Source: Acidimicrobiales bacterium (GTDB taxonomy: Bacteria; Actinomycetota; Acidimicrobiia; Acidimicrobiales; Poriferisodalaceae). From it: a DNA stretch of 64,000 bases. A model generated the notes under the pieces. It ran no database searches. It saw nothing but the letters and a program-made list of their open reading frames with translations, and was not told where the DNA came from. The number at the start of each line of letters is the position of its first letter. The stretch's first letter is position 1. The stretch spans positions 62,001 to 126,000 of the forward strand of contig JAAZYR010000006.1 of assembly GCA_014239555.1 (NCBI GenBank). The letters run 5' to 3'. Shown piece by piece: positions 21,398 through 29,271 of the stretch. The translations under genes and the position numbers were made by a program.

Positions 21398-21745
21398 TCA
21401 CCCACCGACAATGAAGCGCTGGTGAGTTCCCTGGGACACCAAGGTTTCCATGTGGCTTACCTTTACGTTAAAAACCAGTCGCTTACGATCAACCTCGGCT
21501 AGCTCAGCATCGATTACGACACTTTCCCCTGACGCGGCAGCCGCTTCGTGGCTAACACACACGTGAATGCCCACTGTGGTTTGTCCTTCGTCGAGGTGAG
21601 GTTGGACACCAAATAAACAAGTGCCCTCAATGAGACGGACCATATCGGGGGTCGACAAAACCTTGTTCGGTAGGTGTGGTGGCGACATCTCGTCCGTCAC
21701 TTCGACGGTGTCGCTGAAAAGCAGGCCGGCTTGGAGTTCACTCAT
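21398..21745 (-). CDS. Hotdog-fold acyl-CoA thioesterase-like protein
   Basis: 115 residues from ATG 21745. VGIHVCVSHEAAAASGESVVIDAELAEVDRKRLVFNVKV is typical of the fluoroacetyl-CoA-thioesterase-like hotdog group (FlK/YbgC-related): a His before the central strand and an ELxEVxxxxLxFxV strand. It would release a free acid from a CoA thioester. It is the last gene of the minus-strand selenoprotein operon, starting 10 nt after the phosphotriesterase-like gene; a TAGCCT box 7 nt before the ATG could give an extra internal transcript. Confidence 0.75.
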   Translation of the reverse strand: MSELQAGLLFSDTVEVTDEMSPPHLPNKVLSTPDMVRLIEGTCLFGVQPHLDEGQTTVGIHVCVSHEAAAASGESVVIDAELAEVDRKRLVFNVKVSHMETLVSQGTHQRFIVGG

Positions 21746-21758
21746 ATTTTCGAGGCTA
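21746..21758 (-). promoter_or_regulatory. Possible internal leaderless -10 box before the thioesterase
   Basis: TAGCCT (21758-21753) lies 7 nt before the ATG at 21745 and overlaps the upstream stop codon, so it may only be coincidence inside the operon. Confidence 0.35.
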
Positions 21759-22730
21759 GTACCCACCAAGATTTTGTGATTGGAGAAACCTTCGCGGTGT
21801 GTCCACCAACATCGTTTCGATCTGCGATTCTGTGACTCCAGCCGCAAGGAGAGCGGGTATGACGTCTTTGCTGATGTGTAAGTAGTGCCAGTTGGGTAAA
21901 GGAGCAAGCGGCACTTCTCCTTCAATCCAATCGATATAGCAGGAAGCGTCGTGACTTAATACCAGTTGATCTGCATGACCTCGCCTGCAGAGCTCGGCAA
22001 CGACTTCAACTCGTTGCTCCGTGGTCAGGTAGCCGTCGATGCCGAATCTATCCATACCCAGGATGCTTCCAGCGTCAAGAAGCTTTTGCAGGTAAGAAAG
22101 GTCTTGAGAGTCTCCGCAGTGTCCGATCACCACGCGACTCAAATCGACACCTTCTTCAGCAAAGATTTGTTGCTGGTCAAGCCCTCGTTCCAATTCTGCG
22201 TTTGTGTGGGTCGTGATGGGGCAGCCCGTTTCTCGATGGGCCTGAGCACACGCTCGAAGCACTCGCTCGACGTCAGGGGTGAGACCCGGCTTGTCTGTTG
22301 CGCATTTTATGACTCCTGCCTTAACTCCGGTATCGGCGAACCCACTAACGATGTCTTGGACAAAGTGAGCAGTGAGAGCGTCAGTCTTTTCGATGGTGCG
22401 CCTTCGGTAGTAATGGGGAAGTTCGTTAAATGTGTAGAGGCCAGTCGCACAGACAATCTTAAGATCGATTCTGTCGGCGACAGCCTGGATTCGTGGGATA
22501 TAGCGACCGAGACCGATCGCTGTTGGATCGACGATGGTGTCGATGCCACTGCCCTTTAATTCAGTGAGCCGGGCAACAGCGTCATCAATTCGAACCTGTT
22601 CTTCGCCCCACTCCTTAGGGTAGTTCTGTTGAATTTCAGTAGATATGACGAAAACATGTTCATGCATCAGTACTCGGCCTAGCTCTGATGCCAAAACGGG
22701 TCCCGTAGCGGTTTCAACGGCGGCTTTCAT
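21756..22730 (-). CDS. Phosphotriesterase-family metal hydrolase (lactonase-like)
   Basis: 324 residues with the binuclear-metal TIM-barrel ligands of the phosphotriesterase family: MHEHVF near the N-terminus, carbamylated-Lys context AGVIKCATD (about residue 140), ITTHTNAE, VIGHCGD and LSHDAS (Asp ligand, about residue 255). Most family members in catabolic loci act as lactonases. The ATG overlaps the stop of the selenoprotein gene by 4 nt (ATGA), showing translational coupling. In this operon it could open a lactone or hydrolyse an ester made upstream. Confidence 0.88.
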   Translation of the reverse strand: MKAAVETATGPVLASELGRVLMHEHVFVISTEIQQNYPKEWGEEQVRIDDAVARLTELKGSGIDTIVDPTAIGLGRYIPRIQAVADRIDLKIVCATGLYTFNELPHYYRRRTIEKTDALTAHFVQDIVSGFADTGVKAGVIKCATDKPGLTPDVERVLRACAQAHRETGCPITTHTNAELERGLDQQQIFAEEGVDLSRVVIGHCGDSQDLSYLQKLLDAGSILGMDRFGIDGYLTTEQRVEVVAELCRRGHADQLVLSHDASCYIDWIEGEVPLAPLPNWHYLHISKDVIPALLAAGVTESQIETMLVDTPRRFLQSQNLGGY

Positions 22731-24232
22731 GTACTTAGTGTTTCATCTGCAGCGGTCAACGTGAATGATGAACCGTCAGCGATCAACTCAATCTCTGTCG
22801 TGCCGCCGGCGACGTCCCAAGAAGTCAATGTTTCGTCGCTACTTCTAAGAATCCATTCGCCATCGATAGGTAGACGCCGGACGGTCATCGTCGTCCGAGC
22901 GCCGTTCGTAGCACCATTGCATGGGTCAGCGGCTAAATGCAGCGACCCTTCATCCCAGTGGGCTTGACTCATAGCGACTCGGGGAAAGTCAACTCCCTCG
23001 ACGCACGGTTGTGAATGCTTCGAAAGGTCGGGATTTTCGAAAATTTGAGCCCACGCTCCAGGCTGACAAACCCAGCCGGCCATAACTCTGGCGTTGAATT
23101 GTCCGCGAGGGTGGAGTTCGTTGAGGCCGAACCCGAAGGTGAACTCGCCGGAGTCTGAGTCCAACGTGGGTTCGAAGAAGGTGTCACATGCTTCCCACAG
23201 TTTCTCTTTGACGGCCCCATCGGCAAACTCACCTGTAAACCAGGCCAGCATGACGCCATCGCGAGCGTCAGCCATGCCAACGTCGCTATCTCCCAAGAGA
23301 CCCATTGCCGTGGCACCGAACTTCCAAGCGGATTCCGCGACTTCTCTTCGTTGAGGAGCGAGATACCAAGTTGGTGCAATTAAACCGACCGGAGTCCGAA
23401 GATGTTCGTCAACAACGGGGTCGTAATAAAGGTCCATAGCGACGGCTTTATCTCCGTCCCAAGTTATGTAATTGTCTGCCGCGTACTCCCACCAGTGATC
23501 GAACGCATCATGATGGTTTGTGCCTAGAAGTTGATCGTGAAGTCTCAGACCGAGACCGGCGCCGGCCAGTCAGTAAGGCCATATCTTTGTATTTTCGCAA
23601 TGGCAACCCATTTGACGCCCGTGCCATTGCTCGGCGAGATGGCTCACCACCTCAGAATGAGTCCACGTAAACGTGTGATCGCCGTCGCGAATCATTTCAA
23701 ACGGGTTGTTCCACTTTGGGTCATTGGATACGTAACGATGTAGGCCAAGAATTAAACCGAAGAAGCCTTTAAAGAAGAGCATTCCATCGGCTGCCACAGG
23801 ATCCATTTGAACCCCGTAGGGCTCGATTCCGTTCGCTGTCCATCCCGGCACGTCGTAGTCGCCCCACAAAGCTTCTGGGATCAGAGCCCGGTATTTGTCG
23901 GGGTAATTGCTGCGTTCAGGGTCAGGGCCGAACTGAGTCATCCAATCTTCCGCCGCCCACCACGAAGTGTGACGTTCGACTACTTCGTCAAGTACACGCG
24001 AATAGACCTCACTCCACGCCGGTGTTCGATCACTCATCAACGCCATGGCGTAGGCAGAATCAATGAGATCAAAGCGGTGGAAAGAGGTCATAGGAGGACC
24101 AGTTTTGTTGTCCCAATGAGGATGCGGATGACCGTTCCGACTCCAGTCATCTGGCGTCGTGGCTTTCCGATACAAATAGCGGAGCCAACCGAGTGAACGC
24201 TGGTCAAGTGGGTCGTGCGTCCTAACCGTCAT
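22727..24232 (-). CDS. Putative selenoprotein: Ldi (linalool dehydratase/isomerase)-like enzyme with Sec221
   Basis: One continuous 501-codon frame from ATG 24232, broken only by TGA at 23572-23570 (codon 221). On both sides the protein resembles the Ldi alpha/alpha-barrel family: FFKGFFGLILGLHRY, then GCHCENTKIWPY-U-LAGAGLGLRLHD, then a DLYYDP strand. In Castellaniella Ldi (sequence recalled) the catalytic Cys171 and Cys180 are nine residues apart and followed by a YDRLHGT helix; here Cys212 and the TGA are nine apart and followed by HDQLLGT. The TGA therefore occupies the second catalytic Cys position. A SECIS-like hairpin follows (23569-23542). The residue matching Ldi His129 appears to be Phe, so the reaction may differ from myrcene/linalool conversion. 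Its start overlaps the upstream flavoprotein gene by 11 bp and its stop overlaps the hydrolase start. Normal TGA stops elsewhere exclude a code change. A sequencing error or nonsense mutation is the alternative. Confidence 0.8.
23542..23572 (-). promoter_or_regulatory. Bacterial SECIS element with UGA(Sec) codon
   Basis: On the minus strand the UGA (23572-23570) is followed by 18 nt and then the loop GGUCU (23551-23547), closed by GUCUC (23556-23552) and GAGAC (23546-23542). Two further G-U pairs can extend the stem. In E. coli fdhF the loop sequence GGUCU also starts 18 nt after the UGA, and the loop G and U contact SelB. The bulged U of fdhF is not evident here. Confidence 0.8.
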
Positions 24233-25250
24233 TGTGCAACCTTTGCGTTATAGAGCTAGCTGTCAACCGTTCTAGGTGATGCCGTTTGATTTCTGGAGTT
24301 TGACCTTGTACCAGCAAAAAGAGTGCCTCTCTTGCCAGGCGTTGTGCTTGGTGTTCGACAAATAGAGCCGAACCTCCAGTGCTCGCCACAAGAGCTGAGG
24401 TGGCACGCACACAAAGATCTCCTAGACGTGCACGAGCCTCAGGTAATTGATCCGCTGTAGCAGCGTTGATGTGTTGCCTCGCTTCTGACAACTGATCATC
24501 CAAGAGACTCGGCCCTAGAAGACGCATAGCGCGTGCTGCGACGCCAAGCGGGTTAGAACCATTGGATCGCAATCCGTGCCGGTATCGCTCTTTCCAGTCT
24601 TTCAACTGTTCCACCGAAGTGACGGCCTTCGTTGCCACAGGATGCTTATCGAAACGCAGTTCGACCGTCACAGCCGAATCAATTGCTGTCAGCGAAAGTC
24701 TGCGGCTCGTAATAGTTTCACAATCTCGAGCATCAACCATGGCCCAGACAATTGAGTCAGCCCAACGAGCTGCCGTTAGGACGACATCTATGTGACCCCA
24801 CCCAGTTACAAACGGGGCCGTTCCCGAGAAAAGCCATCCGTCGCTACAGGGGTCAGCTAGAAGCATTGGAGAACCTGGTCGATTCAAATGAGCGAATGCG
24901 ACTCCGCCTCGCGCTTCGCCGGTGGCAAGAGCTTCGGCCCACTGATCTCGCATCGGCCCCGTGGTTTCGACTGATGCTCGGCTAGGGCCAGCGTGTTGAG
25001 CCCAAACAAAACTTGTAGTCAGACATCCACCAGCTAAAGCTTCAAGAACGGCCCACTGAGTTTCAGCCGATGCGCCCAGACCTCCGAACTCGGTTGGTGA
25101 AAACAGCCCATGAAAGCCAGCGCCACAGACAAGGTCGAGCGCTGCTACGGGAACTTCTCCTTTCGCATCCACCGCGAGTGCGCCCGGGAAAAGGTTGGCA
25201 TCGGCGAGTTCAGCGGCCCTCGCAACGATTTCACCGTCGATTTTGCTCAT
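24222..25250 (-). CDS. Acyl-CoA dehydrogenase-like flavoprotein
   Basis: 342 residues of the acyl-CoA dehydrogenase fold: GFHGLFSPTEFGGLGAS in the N-terminal helical domain, GVAFAHLNRPGSPMLLADPCSDGWLFSGTAPFVTGWGHIDVVLTAA in the beta domain and QTPEIKRHHLERL in the C-terminal helices. It is shorter than classical acyl-CoA dehydrogenases and lacks their usual catalytic-Glu signature, so it may be a desaturase of a CoA or ACP ester or a flavin monooxygenase-like relative. Both ends overlap neighbours (4 bp ATGA upstream, 11 bp with the selenoprotein gene), so the genes are translated as a block. Confidence 0.75.
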   Translation of the reverse strand: MSKIDGEIVARAAELADANLFPGALAVDAKGEVPVAALDLVCGAGFHGLFSPTEFGGLGASAETQWAVLEALAGGCLTTSFVWAQHAGPSRASVETTGPMRDQWAEALATGEARGGVAFAHLNRPGSPMLLADPCSDGWLFSGTAPFVTGWGHIDVVLTAARWADSIVWAMVDARDCETITSRRLSLTAIDSAVTVELRFDKHPVATKAVTSVEQLKDWKERYRHGLRSNGSNPLGVAARAMRLLGPSLLDDQLSEARQHINAATADQLPEARARLGDLCVRATSALVASTGGSALFVEHQAQRLAREALFLLVQGQTPEIKRHHLERLTASSITQRLHNDG

Positions 25251-26134
25251 TCGTCGTCAAACAGTTCATAGACGACTGGCGAATAGAAGTGCCCCATGCC
25301 TTTATCGACAATTTCAGAGAAACGGTCCCGAATTAAGCGGGCACCTTGGGCGTCCACACCAACTTGGTTTGCAAGGTCCAACGCGTAATCAAGATCTTTA
25401 AGGGAGTACGTCGTGGGAAATCGGTCCGTGGGGTACTCGCCGCTTGTCATAAAGGAGCCGTGGCGCCGAAGAGCGAAACTGTCCGCCGATCCTTGACCCA
25501 ATAAATCGAATACGCGACTGCGCGGCACCCCCGCTCGCGTCGCAATCGCCATCGCCTCCGCCAGAGCGGAAACGTTTTCGAATAAGACCATGTTGTTCAT
25601 CAGCTTCATCACGGTCCCGGTCCCCACAGGACCACAGTATGCAACGTCGGAGCCCATACAACCGAGCCAAGGTGCTATCCGGTCGAAGATGTTTTCAGAA
25701 GCGCCCACTGTGATCGAAAGCGTCCCATCGTGAGCGTTCGGGACGCCGCGAGCGACTGGAGCGTCGGCGAAATGGGCGCCCTTAGCGGCGAGCGCTTCAG
25801 AAACGTCTAAGTTCACTTTGACTGTCGCTGTCGTGCAATCAACCACGATCTGCCCAGCCCTCGCATAATCGCAAAGCCCGCCTTTGGCAAGGCTAATCGA
25901 TCGAGTTTGCTCTTCTCCGGGCACACAGATGAAGATGATGTCAGCACGAGATATGTCAGCTAAACCGTTGGCCGCGATGCTTCCTGAGTTGACCGCTGCC
26001 TGAACCGCTTTCGAATCAAGATCGTGTGCGAGTACGGGGACAGGTGATTTGCGCACCAAATTTGCGCACATCGGTCCCCCCATCGCTCCAAGACCCACGA
26101 ACGCGACGAGCTCGACCGAAGAATCAAACATAAG
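25247..26134 (-). CDS. 3-hydroxyisobutyrate dehydrogenase-like NAD(P)-dependent beta-hydroxyacid dehydrogenase
   Basis: 295 residues from ATG 26134. VAFVGLGAMGGPMCANLVRK is the dinucleotide-binding start, VDCTTATVKVNLDVSEALAAKGAHFADAPVARGVPNAHDGTL the substrate-binding stretch, and GTGTVMKLMNNMVLF holds the catalytic Lys. Family members oxidise beta-hydroxy acids or reduce short aldehydes or tartronate semialdehyde. It is the first gene of the selenoprotein operon and is divergent from the PhyH gene with 60 nt between the starts. A longer in-frame start at 26245 would overlap that gene and is unlikely. Confidence 0.85.
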   Translation of the reverse strand, partial: LMFDSSVELVAFVGLGAMGGPMCANLVRKSPVPVLAHDLDSKAVQAAVNSGSIAANGLADISRADIIFICVPGEEQTRSISLAKGGLCDYARAGQIVVDCTTATVKVNLDVSEALAAKGAHFADAPVARGVPNAHDGTLSITVGASENIFDRIAPWLGCMGSDVAYCGPVGTGTVMKLMNNMVLFENVSALAEAMAIATRAGVPRSRVFDLLGQGSADSFALRRHGSFMTSGEYPTDRFPTTYSLKDLDYALDLANQVGVDAQGARLIRDRFSEIVDKGMGHFYSPVVYELFDDE

Positions 26135-26194
26135 AGGATTCTGGCTCACAGCGCGTACCCGATGTGGGCATCTAGAGTGAAGAGGGGGGAGCAC

Positions 26195-27349
26195 ATGCAG
26201 ACCGCACAACGGAAATCTGAATGGCGTAACTCTGAATTCAGACAATATTGCGCTGAAGGTAAGAAAAGAGCTCTCGATCTCGGGAATAGAGGACCGATTC
26301 GGTTTGCGTCCGATGGTCAGCTTGCCTCCGAGATCTTAGAGGCGTATGAGCGTTGCGGGTTTTACGTGTTCGAGAATGTCGTTGGGGAAGAAGAGTTGAC
26401 GGAATGTCGCTCTGAAATTGACGAGTTGCTGCAGCGAGCTCCTTGGCCCCGTCGGGACTCGAAGACAGACCGTCAGGGCCGAGAGGCGCTTGGTTTAGAC
26501 CTCGCTATCAACCCGTGGATCATGACCAGACCGCTCAGTGACCCCGTGGGAGGTACCGCAGAGAACAATGGTCGACACCCAGTAAAAATGTACGAACCTG
26601 AGCCCGCTGCGAACAGTCCCATCCATGTTCCCTACTTGGTTGCCGGCTGCCTGCAGTTACTCCCGTCGTTTCTACGGATCTTCGGCCACCCGGGGATCTT
26701 GCGAGTTGCTGAAGCCATAAATGGACCAGACTTCACGCCCTTTACGGAAGTGCTCTTTGTTAAGGAACCCGAGCTAGGGCCCTCTGTTTCATGGCATCAA
26801 GATGGCCAAATTCATTGGGATAATCCCGACTGGAACCCGAACATTCATGGGTTCAATGTGCAGGTACAGCTTTATGGAAGTACCCCTGCAAATGGAGTTT
26901 GGGTACTGCCCGGCACACACAGCGAAGGCAAAGTAGATATCGCGGATCGAATAAGGAAAAATAACGGTTCCGACTGGTTCGAAGACGCTGTCCCTCTTGT
27001 CTGCGCTCCGGGAGACGCGTTCATTACCAATCGACAGACAGTCCACGGCTCGTTCCCGAACACCTCAAAAGATCGGCGAATAACGGTCAATTTTGGGTTT
27101 CATCGATATTCGTCGGTGATTGGTCAAACCGGAAAGTTAAGCGGTGCCGGAAATGTGTACACCGATGACTACATTCGGCAGCGCTGCCGTTGCATCCCGT
27201 TGGCAATAGACGCTCGAATCCAACGTTTTCCTGAAGAAGAGCGGTATAGCTATCAGCCGTTTATGGGGCTGGAAGAAGAACATCGCTACGAACCTGACAC
27301 CGCACGAGATATCTTGACTAACTACAACCTCCGAGATTTAGGTATTTAA
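26195..27349 (+). CDS. PhyH-family Fe(II)/2-oxoglutarate dioxygenase
   Basis: 384 residues. SWHQDG supplies the His and Asp of the iron triad, QTVHGSFPN the distal His, and RRITVNFGFHR the 2-oxoglutarate-binding Arg. Phytanoyl-CoA dioxygenase relatives hydroxylate alkyl chains, often of branched or isoprenoid compounds. GAGGGGGGA precedes ATG 26195. The flavin monooxygenase gene starts 3 nt after its stop, so the two oxygenases are made together. Confidence 0.88.
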   Translation: MQTAQRKSEWRNSEFRQYCAEGKKRALDLGNRGPIRFASDGQLASEILEAYERCGFYVFENVVGEEELTECRSEIDELLQRAPWPRRDSKTDRQGREALGLDLAINPWIMTRPLSDPVGGTAENNGRHPVKMYEPEPAANSPIHVPYLVAGCLQLLPSFLRIFGHPGILRVAEAINGPDFTPFTEVLFVKEPELGPSVSWHQDGQIHWDNPDWNPNIHGFNVQVQLYGSTPANGVWVLPGTHSEGKVDIADRIRKNNGSDWFEDAVPLVCAPGDAFITNRQTVHGSFPNTSKDRRITVNFGFHRYSSVIGQTGKLSGAGNVYTDDYIRQRCRCIPLAIDARIQRFPEEERYSYQPFMGLEEEHRYEPDTARDILTNYNLRDLGI

Positions 27350-27351
27350 AA

Positions 27352-29271
27352 ATGAACCTGGACCCTGACGAACAGATCTTCGCTGACGCAATCGAAGTAG
27401 CGAACATTCCCACGCTTCTCATGGTGATCGTCCAACTCACAGGCGAACTTGAATGGTTGGAGGCGCCGTACACCCCGAAGCGACAACCAGGCCTTGGTGA
27501 TAACGACAGTGGTGGGCTGGATCCTCGACACCAACGCGAAGTTCGAGAAGCGGCACTTGAGGCTATTTTAGCTTGGCGCGCAGGACGCGCTGTGGCGCTC
27601 CCCGAGCCTGACGAAGAACTCATAGTACGCATGCTGAGTGTCTCGATGGCAGAGACCGTTCCATCTGAATACGGACAATTCACCGCGGCTCAATTAGGTC
27701 AAGTGAAGTTTTTGGACCACGAACCTGTGAACGCCCCGGCAGATTTCAAAGTTCTAGTCATTGGTGCCGGCGTTTCAGGTTTGTGTGCAGCCATCAACCT
27801 CCAAATGCTTGGCATCAACTTCGAAGTAGTGGAACGGAACTCAACTGTTGGCGGCGTCTGGTGGGAAAACCATTACCCCGGAGCTGGCGTAGACACACCC
27901 AACCATCTGTACTCGTACTCGTTCGCTCCGTACGATTGGCAAAAATATTTTTGTCTCCGGGATGAACTCCACGCATATCTCGAACACGTATGCGACAACT
28001 TTGAGGTACGCAACAACATTCGCTTCGACACTGGTGTGGAGCGCATCGAATACCAAGAGTCGCGTCAGAAATGGTTAGTAACACTTCGCCTACCTGATGG
28101 CACATTGGAACAAACCGAAGCCAACGTCGTAATCAGCGCAGCCGGAATCTTTAATCCACCCGTTTTCCCCAACATCGACGGACTGGATGAATGGAAAGGC
28201 GAAAAATGGCACACAGCGCGATGGCCTAAAGACGCCGATTTGGCAGGGAAGCGTGTTGCGATCATCGGCAACGGTGCTAGCTGCATGCAGATCGCTCCCG
28301 AAATTCAAGATGAAGTCGAATCCCTGACGATCTTCCAAAAGTCGGTTCATTGGGCTGCACCGTTTGAGCAATTTCGAAAAGAAGTCCCCGACCCGATACG
28401 CACTCTCTTGCGCGAGGTGCCTTTGTATCGAAACTGGTACCGCGTCCGGTTGGGATGGACTTTCAACGACCGCATCCACTCTGCGTTACAAAAAGACCCG
28501 GATTGGGAGCATCCTGAGCGGTCGCTCAACGCGCAGAACGACGCTCACAGGGCATATTTCACTCAATACGTCGTCGATGAATTAGGCGATAAAGCCCCTG
28601 AGCTACTTGAACGTGTACTTCCCACGTACCCGCCCTTCGGAAAGCGAATGCTGATGGACAACGGGTGGTACCGCATGCTCCGTAATCCAAAAGTCACGTT
28701 GGTAGATAACCACGTCGACCGAATTGAGCATGACCGTCTCCGCACCGAGGAAGGCACTGAATATGAAGCTGACGTGCTTTTGTTGGCGACAGGATTTGAC
28801 GTGTTGAATTTCATCACGACATACGACGCGGTGGGACGTTCTGGTGCGTCGTTGACGGATCAATGGGAACAGGACAATGCCAAGGCGTATCTCGGTACGG
28901 TCGTGCCTGACTTCCCGAACTTATTTACCTTGTATGGGCCAAATCTTCAGCCAGGCCATGGGGGGAGTCTCATCTTCGTCGTAGAGATGCAAGTTAGGTA
29001 CATCATGGACATGATCCAAAAAATGCTTCAAGACAACATCGGGGCAGTGGAGATCCGCAAAGAAGTGCACGATGCGTACAACGACAAGGTCGACCTAGCG
29101 CATGAGCAAATGGTGTGGGCGCACCCGGGAATGACCTCTTATTACCGCAACGAGCGCGGGCGAATCGTCGTGAACTCGCCATGGAGAAATGTGGATTTCT
29201 ATCAGATGACGCGAGAAGCCAATCTAGAAGAATATGTAGCTGAACCGGTGGGCGAACTAATTGCCGATTAG
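27352..29271 (+). CDS. Long FMO/Baeyer-Villiger monooxygenase with N-terminal extension
   Basis: 639 residues. An N-terminal extension of about 125 residues precedes the FAD motif VIGAGVSGLCAAINL. The fingerprint WKGEKWHTARWP (about residue 282) matches FxGxxxHxxxW except for Trp in place of Phe, and AIIGNGASCMQIAPEI is the NADPH motif. This layout is that of the long 'type I-like' BVMOs such as 4-hydroxyacetophenone or steroid-type monooxygenases. It starts 3 nt after the PhyH stop. A role in oxygenating a ketone derived from the same substrate is inferred. Its end overlaps the convergent threonine aldolase gene by 4 bp. Confidence 0.9.
   Translation: MNLDPDEQIFADAIEVANIPTLLMVIVQLTGELEWLEAPYTPKRQPGLGDNDSGGLDPRHQREVREAALEAILAWRAGRAVALPEPDEELIVRMLSVSMAETVPSEYGQFTAAQLGQVKFLDHEPVNAPADFKVLVIGAGVSGLCAAINLQMLGINFEVVERNSTVGGVWWENHYPGAGVDTPNHLYSYSFAPYDWQKYFCLRDELHAYLEHVCDNFEVRNNIRFDTGVERIEYQESRQKWLVTLRLPDGTLEQTEANVVISAAGIFNPPVFPNIDGLDEWKGEKWHTARWPKDADLAGKRVAIIGNGASCMQIAPEIQDEVESLTIFQKSVHWAAPFEQFRKEVPDPIRTLLREVPLYRNWYRVRLGWTFNDRIHSALQKDPDWEHPERSLNAQNDAHRAYFTQYVVDELGDKAPELLERVLPTYPPFGKRMLMDNGWYRMLRNPKVTLVDNHVDRIEHDRLRTEEGTEYEADVLLLATGFDVLNFITTYDAVGRSGASLTDQWEQDNAKAYLGTVVPDFPNLFTLYGPNLQPGHGGSLIFVVEMQVRYIMDMIQKMLQDNIGAVEIRKEVHDAYNDKVDLAHEQMVWAHPGMTSYYRNERGRIVVNSPWRNVDFYQMTREANLEEYVAEPVGELIAD

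Follow-up and report, generated by a model that had tools for sequence, protein, structure and literature searches.

A predicted selenocysteine in the catalytic pair of an Ldi-family enzyme, with a predicted double-selenium branch

How is a TGA codon read when it interrupts an otherwise open gene at the position of a catalytic cysteine? This question is raised by the read-through gene at 22727..24232 (minus strand) of the window, the 64,000-nucleotide (nt) stretch of an Acidimicrobiales bacterium genome analysed here, which encodes a predicted enzyme of the linalool dehydratase/isomerase (Ldi) family. Reading from 24232 to 22730, the frame contains 501 codons with a lone in-frame TGA at codon 221 (23572-23570), followed by a TGA stop codon at 22729-22727. 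A first-pass annotation had described this 501-codon frame and its single TGA without naming the strand; the frame was borne out and belongs to the minus strand. Many stops interrupt the plus strand across the region, and a plus-strand reading of the gene was therefore dropped. The same annotation had proposed that selenocysteine (Sec) replaces the second catalytic cysteine of Ldi. A cysteine column in relatives, 40 loci with the TGA, a conserved hairpin and the selenium genes of the genome all support this proposal, and we infer from the sequences that residue 221 is very probably Sec.

The Pfam Ldi domain (PF18566) was matched at residues 142-305, spanning the TGA, with 42 bits compared to a gathering cut-off of 26.1, in keeping with the earlier statement that both halves of the frame resemble one family. 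A 25-member family profile aligned positions 212 and 221 with both cysteines of the Ldi motif CEPDNYFVQC. Cys212 (codon TGC, 23597..23599, minus strand) is located nine residues ahead of the TGA (23570..23572, minus strand), and the spacing and alignment to the Ldi cysteine pair that had been claimed from the single sequence were confirmed by this profile. Chalcogen residues would therefore stand nine apart at both Ldi catalytic positions, as Cys212 and predicted Sec221, the latter assigned by alignment and conservation. A predicted structure matched the Ldi-type (alpha,alpha)6-barrel fold, with one predicted helix (residues 219-236) running through site 221. When the PDB was searched with the single sequence no relative was found; Ldi was recovered only with the 25-sequence profile.

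Relative to linalool dehydratase/isomerase of Castellaniella defragrans (Ldi/LinD; PDB 5G1U, 5HLR and 5I3T; mutants 6TFR, 6TFT and 6T9H), the window protein is 15% identical, has a predicted Sec in place of cysteine at the second catalytic position, and is predicted to carry an extra beta-rich C-terminal part from approximately residue 410. The 25-member profile aligned Phe157 with the histidine of the KGH of Ldi (His129). There is no cysteine ahead of residue 210, and thus no counterpart of the Cys48-Cys101 disulfide that caps the substrate channel of the Castellaniella enzyme, as described in PMC6600392. Because His129 is replaced by phenylalanine and the capping disulfide is absent, the gene is described here as a predicted Ldi-family enzyme and is not called a linalool dehydratase. 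As a separate observation, one locus (L062, G371:C1:486895-487206) has a 789-residue frame in which a hydrophobic N-terminal part precedes a Cys-type Ldi domain, resembling the membrane-anchored linalool isomerase described in PMC4791888.

The window protein matched 840 relatives, 120 of which were examined at columns 212 and 221. Cysteine was found at both columns in all 119 of these 120 that reach them, which answers the check proposed in the first-pass annotation for column 221. These Cys-type Ldi-domain proteins, from Actinobacteria and metagenomes (P0002-P0121), are 44-57% identical to the window protein over most of its length, and nearly all carry the motif HCENTKxWPxC; they have cysteine at both positions, unlike the predicted Cys-Sec pair of the window protein. 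Across 121 rows including that of the window, column 157 was phenylalanine in 106, tryptophan in 12, aspartate in two and a gap in one. The change of Ldi His129 to phenylalanine that had been noted earlier is therefore real, but phenylalanine is common to most Cys-type relatives and characterises the subfamily as a whole, with no link to selenium.

Genome searches with the window protein (P0001) covered 198 near relatives (25 matched), 395 genomes of the class (9 matched) and 396 of the phylum (3 matched), while a search with a relative carrying two in-frame TGA codons covered 397 genomes of the order (38 matched); all four genome sets overlap. After 12 loci from named records were added, the motif could be read through in 47 distinct loci: 25 Cys-Sec (that of the window included), 15 Sec-Sec, five Cys-Cys and two Ser-His, with no Sec-Cys type among them. 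Codon 221 is TGA in 40 distinct loci, and in 15 of these codon 212 is TGA as well (HUENTKxWPFU). Within the set of 198 near relatives, ten genomes besides the window's have a single TGA at codon 221 and eight have two in-frame TGAs. Viral contigs gave no pattern match, and when Cys-type DNA was sought in the order of genome G317, only 2 of 58 genomes matched. The ratio of nonsynonymous to synonymous substitution (dN/dS) was 0.04-0.13 before the TGA and 0.05-0.20 after it (finite-dS pairs among 12 run); both halves of the gene are under purifying selection.

Two further loci were observed in these searches. L063 (G742:C17) is a Cys-Sec gene that shares the hairpin described below and comes from a genome with only the phylum in common with the window, outside its class; its frame is without parts of the protein and is perhaps a misassembly. 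L043 (G004:C186), a Cys-Cys paralogue from a genome that also has a Cys-Sec gene, lies on a contig of only 3633 bases and could be a binning contaminant.

Past the TGA lies a hairpin resembling a selenocysteine insertion sequence (SECIS) element (23541..23557, minus strand), with a 6-bp stem and a GGUCU loop (23547-23551) that starts 18 nt past the TGA. The sequence CTCGGTCTGAG[A/G] is present at codons 227-230 in 40/40 Sec-type loci and in 0/7 loci without the TGA (five Cys-Cys, two Ser-His); the five Cys-Cys loci, examined as DNA, lack the hairpin sequence of the Sec-type loci. A hairpin with the GGUCU loop and 18-nt spacing was formed in 27/27 loci scanned, with 6 bp in the window and 6-7 bp overall. 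The fdhF gene of E. coli MG1655 has an identical loop that likewise starts 18 nt past its UGA. The proteins are unrelated, and the bulged U of the E. coli fdhF stem is not evident in the stem of the window.

Codon choice sets the hairpin apart from the remainder of the gene. Among 58 invariant four- or six-fold degenerate columns in 27 aligned Sec-type loci, a single codon was used throughout only at 227, 228 and 229, and Arg230 was encoded by AGA or AGG throughout. Measured against own-gene codon usage in 21 loci of less than 80% identity, log10 P was -9.4, -14.0 and -12.1 for codons 227-229, and -20.3 for AGA/AGG at codon 230. Arginine is present at this last position in only 11/119 Cys-type relatives, so the RNA seems to dictate residue 230. 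Across the 40 Sec-type loci, the third-base combination of codons 226 and 230 was C-G in 24, U-A in 13, U-G in three and C-A in none, with six changes of pair state on the tree. In 500 shuffles, none reached the observed percentage paired, the number of cells changed on both sides or the covariation score.

Several observations weigh against the hairpin and its interpretation. Two other shuffle measures were reached by 150/500 and 500/500 shuffles, and this control ignores relatedness. The covariation comes from one pair, with five of the six stem pairs invariant, and a sign test on independent pairs was too small a sample to decide it. The predicted energy of the window hairpin is -6.5 kcal/mol (core) or -7.4 kcal/mol (29 nt), compared to a published value of -7.5 kcal/mol that was reached by 19/27 loci in the 29-nt fold and by 13/27 with the core alone. 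Free folding of 57 nt around the TGA favoured another structure (z -0.91, not significant). Following the 2348 TGAs of the window, a hairpin of -5 kcal/mol or below was found after 11.2%, and one of -7.5 kcal/mol or below after 3.8%. An Rfam scan of 21700-24400 detected no SECIS element and returned two microRNA matches far below the cut-offs. Finally, selA is also present in genomes where the gene is Cys-type or not found. The argument from the hairpin stands on conservation and not on energy.

The selenium machinery is encoded in the same genome: selA and selB are adjacent, a tRNA-Sec gene (anticodon UCA) lies at a distance of approximately 17 kb, and selD itself contains an in-frame TGA in the context GAGUACK. 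Only one match to RF01852 in the genome was above the cut-off. All of selA, selB, selC and selD, which the first-pass annotation had suggested looking for, are thus present, although this is a weak test. Among 51 chosen related genomes, of which 31 matched the window protein and 20 did not, selA was found in every one (50 over the cut-off). The machinery therefore does not discriminate, and selA co-occurrence was dropped as evidence. The selD gene (L068 1501-2442; G000:C44:173025-173966), with its TGA in the classical GAGUACK site, is a second predicted selenoprotein of the genome.

These observations are consistent with a model, which we judge to be the probable one, in which TGA 221 is read as Sec by means of the conserved hairpin and the Cys212/Sec221 pair performs non-redox catalysis of the Ldi type. 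Sec-tRNA (anticodon UCA) would be brought to the UGA by SelB bound to the GGUCU loop, in the manner of E. coli fdhF. Within the (alpha,alpha)6-barrel active site, Sec221 could serve as the base or nucleophile and Cys212 as the acid, with Sec taking both roles in the form with two TGA codons; the reaction would be water addition, water removal or isomerisation of an unsaturated alcohol. A selenol is ionised at neutral pH, and this property, together with resistance to irreversible oxidation, would be the benefit of selenium. Since Ldi is sensitive to oxygen and requires a mild reductant (PMC6013536), selenium may serve the window enzyme in air. That the reaction itself is non-redox is somewhat favoured by the fold, by the position of the pair and by the two Ser-His loci, since serine and histidine at these positions would suit acid/base and not redox work.

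The chemistry is nevertheless uncertain, because the Ldi histidine and capping disulfide are absent and because redox chemistry is the presumed work of most selenoproteins (PMC13188914). The protein might be a selenoprotein whose Cys/Sec or Sec/Sec pair, on an Ldi scaffold, cycles via a selenenyl-sulfide or diselenide and does redox work such as that of a peroxidase or reductase. A redox function is likely for most selenoproteins that have yet to be characterised (PMC13188914), two chalcogen residues stand nine apart within one site, His129 is lost, and a 1-Cys peroxiredoxin gene is located near one double-TGA locus (L075 10848-11717). With the fold, the position and the Ser-His pair on the other side, we regard redox function as a serious but unlikely possibility.

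Models in which residue 221 is not Sec fare far worse. Translation could end at the TGA, with a second chain of approximately 280 residues starting after it, and in three distinct loci ATG comes directly after the TGA or such a start is encoded (L025, L032 and P0044, a database piece beginning MAGAGLG). However, the remaining Sec-type loci have no ATG after the TGA (mostly CTG or CTA; CAG in L088), the single predicted helix runs through the site, and the synonymous bases of the hairpin do not vary, making two separate proteins very improbable. The UGA could instead be read as another amino acid, such as cysteine inserted by a tRNA-Cys with a UCA anticodon. Such tRNAs are known elsewhere, and relatives have cysteine at column 221. 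Against this, the fdhF-type loop and spacing are present in all 40 loci, and the genome encodes tRNA-Sec (UCA), selA, selB and selD, with the single RF01852 match above the cut-off; we give this reading hardly any credence. A lone in-frame stop in a draft genome (2,720,553 bases, 68 contigs, 95.6% complete) might suggest a sequencing error or a decayed gene, but the recurrence of this codon at 40 distinct loci and the low dN/dS past the TGA refute this, leaving it a negligible prospect.

The 15 loci with TGA at both positions are predicted to encode a double-selenium site. In a quick tree of 148 rows, these double forms and L063 fall into one group, which also contains two Cys-Sec loci and, on a long branch, the two Ser-His loci. 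The latter (L037, G187:C29; L038, G078:C20) have serine and histidine at the catalytic positions and fall within the double-Sec group. Left free, the quick tree parts the double-form group from the clade of the window. Two separate origins of Sec were considered and set aside: a constrained tree that holds 27 Sec and two Ser-His rows together was 37.6 log units better (approximately unbiased test, p-AU 0.836), so that one Sec origin is not rejected. In the simplest history that we infer, Sec was gained once at 221 and later at 212, with some reversions and a single loss of both. One genome, G996, was observed to have both a Cys-Sec copy (L088, G996:C230) and a Sec-Sec copy (L113, G996:C101).

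In the double form the conserved loop is located 45 nt from the first UGA, beyond the accepted 16-37 nt. No second hairpin serving the first UGA was kept across the nine double-form loci scanned (of 15). A candidate at 20 nt was found in 5/9 of them, yet it also occurs in two single-form loci and its loop G is unconserved, and it was rejected. We tentatively suggest, as a possibility short of a probable account, that the pair evolved stepwise from Cys/Cys through Cys/Sec to Sec/Sec while remaining non-redox, with two selenols acting as acid/base or nucleophile on an unsaturated substrate and one fdhF-type hairpin serving both UGAs, the first from 45 nt away. Known multi-Sec prokaryotic selenoproteins (UxxU Prx-like, MduS, MbdU and others; Table 1 of PMC13188914) likewise have more than one in-frame UGA per gene, but neither a U-x8-U motif nor the Ldi family is among the multi-Sec families listed there.

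The Ldi family is absent from the 119 prokaryotic selenoprotein families in Table 1 of that 2026 review. None of the papers searched joins linalool dehydratase or PF18566 with selenium proteins, preprints and most subscription papers being outside the coverage; within these sources, the earlier statement that no Ldi-family selenoprotein has been described holds. Literature joining selenocysteine or selenoproteins with Acidimicrobiia or Acidimicrobiales concerns other topics, judging by title. The Sec-type loci would thus represent a new family of selenoproteins, one branch of which is double-Sec, as predicted from their sequences.

If this is true, a dehydratase/isomerase fold has selenium in its catalytic pair, and in 15/40 loci at both positions, and nature provides a series (Cys/Cys, Cys/Sec, Sec/Sec and Ser/His) in which the contribution of selenium could be measured. 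Whether the Ldi cysteines form a covalent thioterpene or work by acid/base catalysis is disputed (PMC6013536), and a later paper in the reference list of PMC12455561 argues by its title for noncovalent mechanisms. The different acidity and nucleophilicity of Sec would make this disputed role directly testable. The double form also poses the question of how a bacterial SelB might read a UGA when the conserved loop lies 45 nt away.

Sec-type Ldi genes are easily overlooked. The sole Sec-type entry among the 120 relatives, P0044, is a fragment beginning after the TGA, and NCBIfam has no matching model. At 11 loci (L055, L070-L074, L076-L079 and L081) the broken Sec frame lost to long antisense frames in a simple open reading frame (ORF) call, so such genes are easily misannotated.

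In the window, the read-through gene lies in an apparent operon. By ORF coordinates, its stop overlaps by 4 nt (ATGA, 22727..22730, minus strand) the start of a downstream phosphotriesterase-family gene (PF02126, 338 bits; 21756..22730, minus strand). Upstream, an acyl-CoA dehydrogenase-like gene (24222..25250, minus strand) overlaps it by 11 nt and is itself overlapped by 4 nt by a 3-hydroxyisobutyrate dehydrogenase-like gene (25247..26245, minus strand), whose true start is probably within the listed ORF. These overlaps with both neighbours make the read-through frame a tight fit in an apparent four-gene operon. Within the closest group, 8/8 long-flank loci (L045-L051, L056) keep the four-gene order, which was not seen in the remaining four long-flank loci (L052-L055). 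Pfam searches on 30 neighbours of 12 further loci revealed no common theme, and assignment of function from gene neighbours was dropped. Beside the operon, at 26162-29271, are divergent genes for a PhyH-family dioxygenase and a flavin monooxygenase; a PhyH-family neighbour of one double-form locus (L035/L077) is 49% identical to the PhyH protein of the window.
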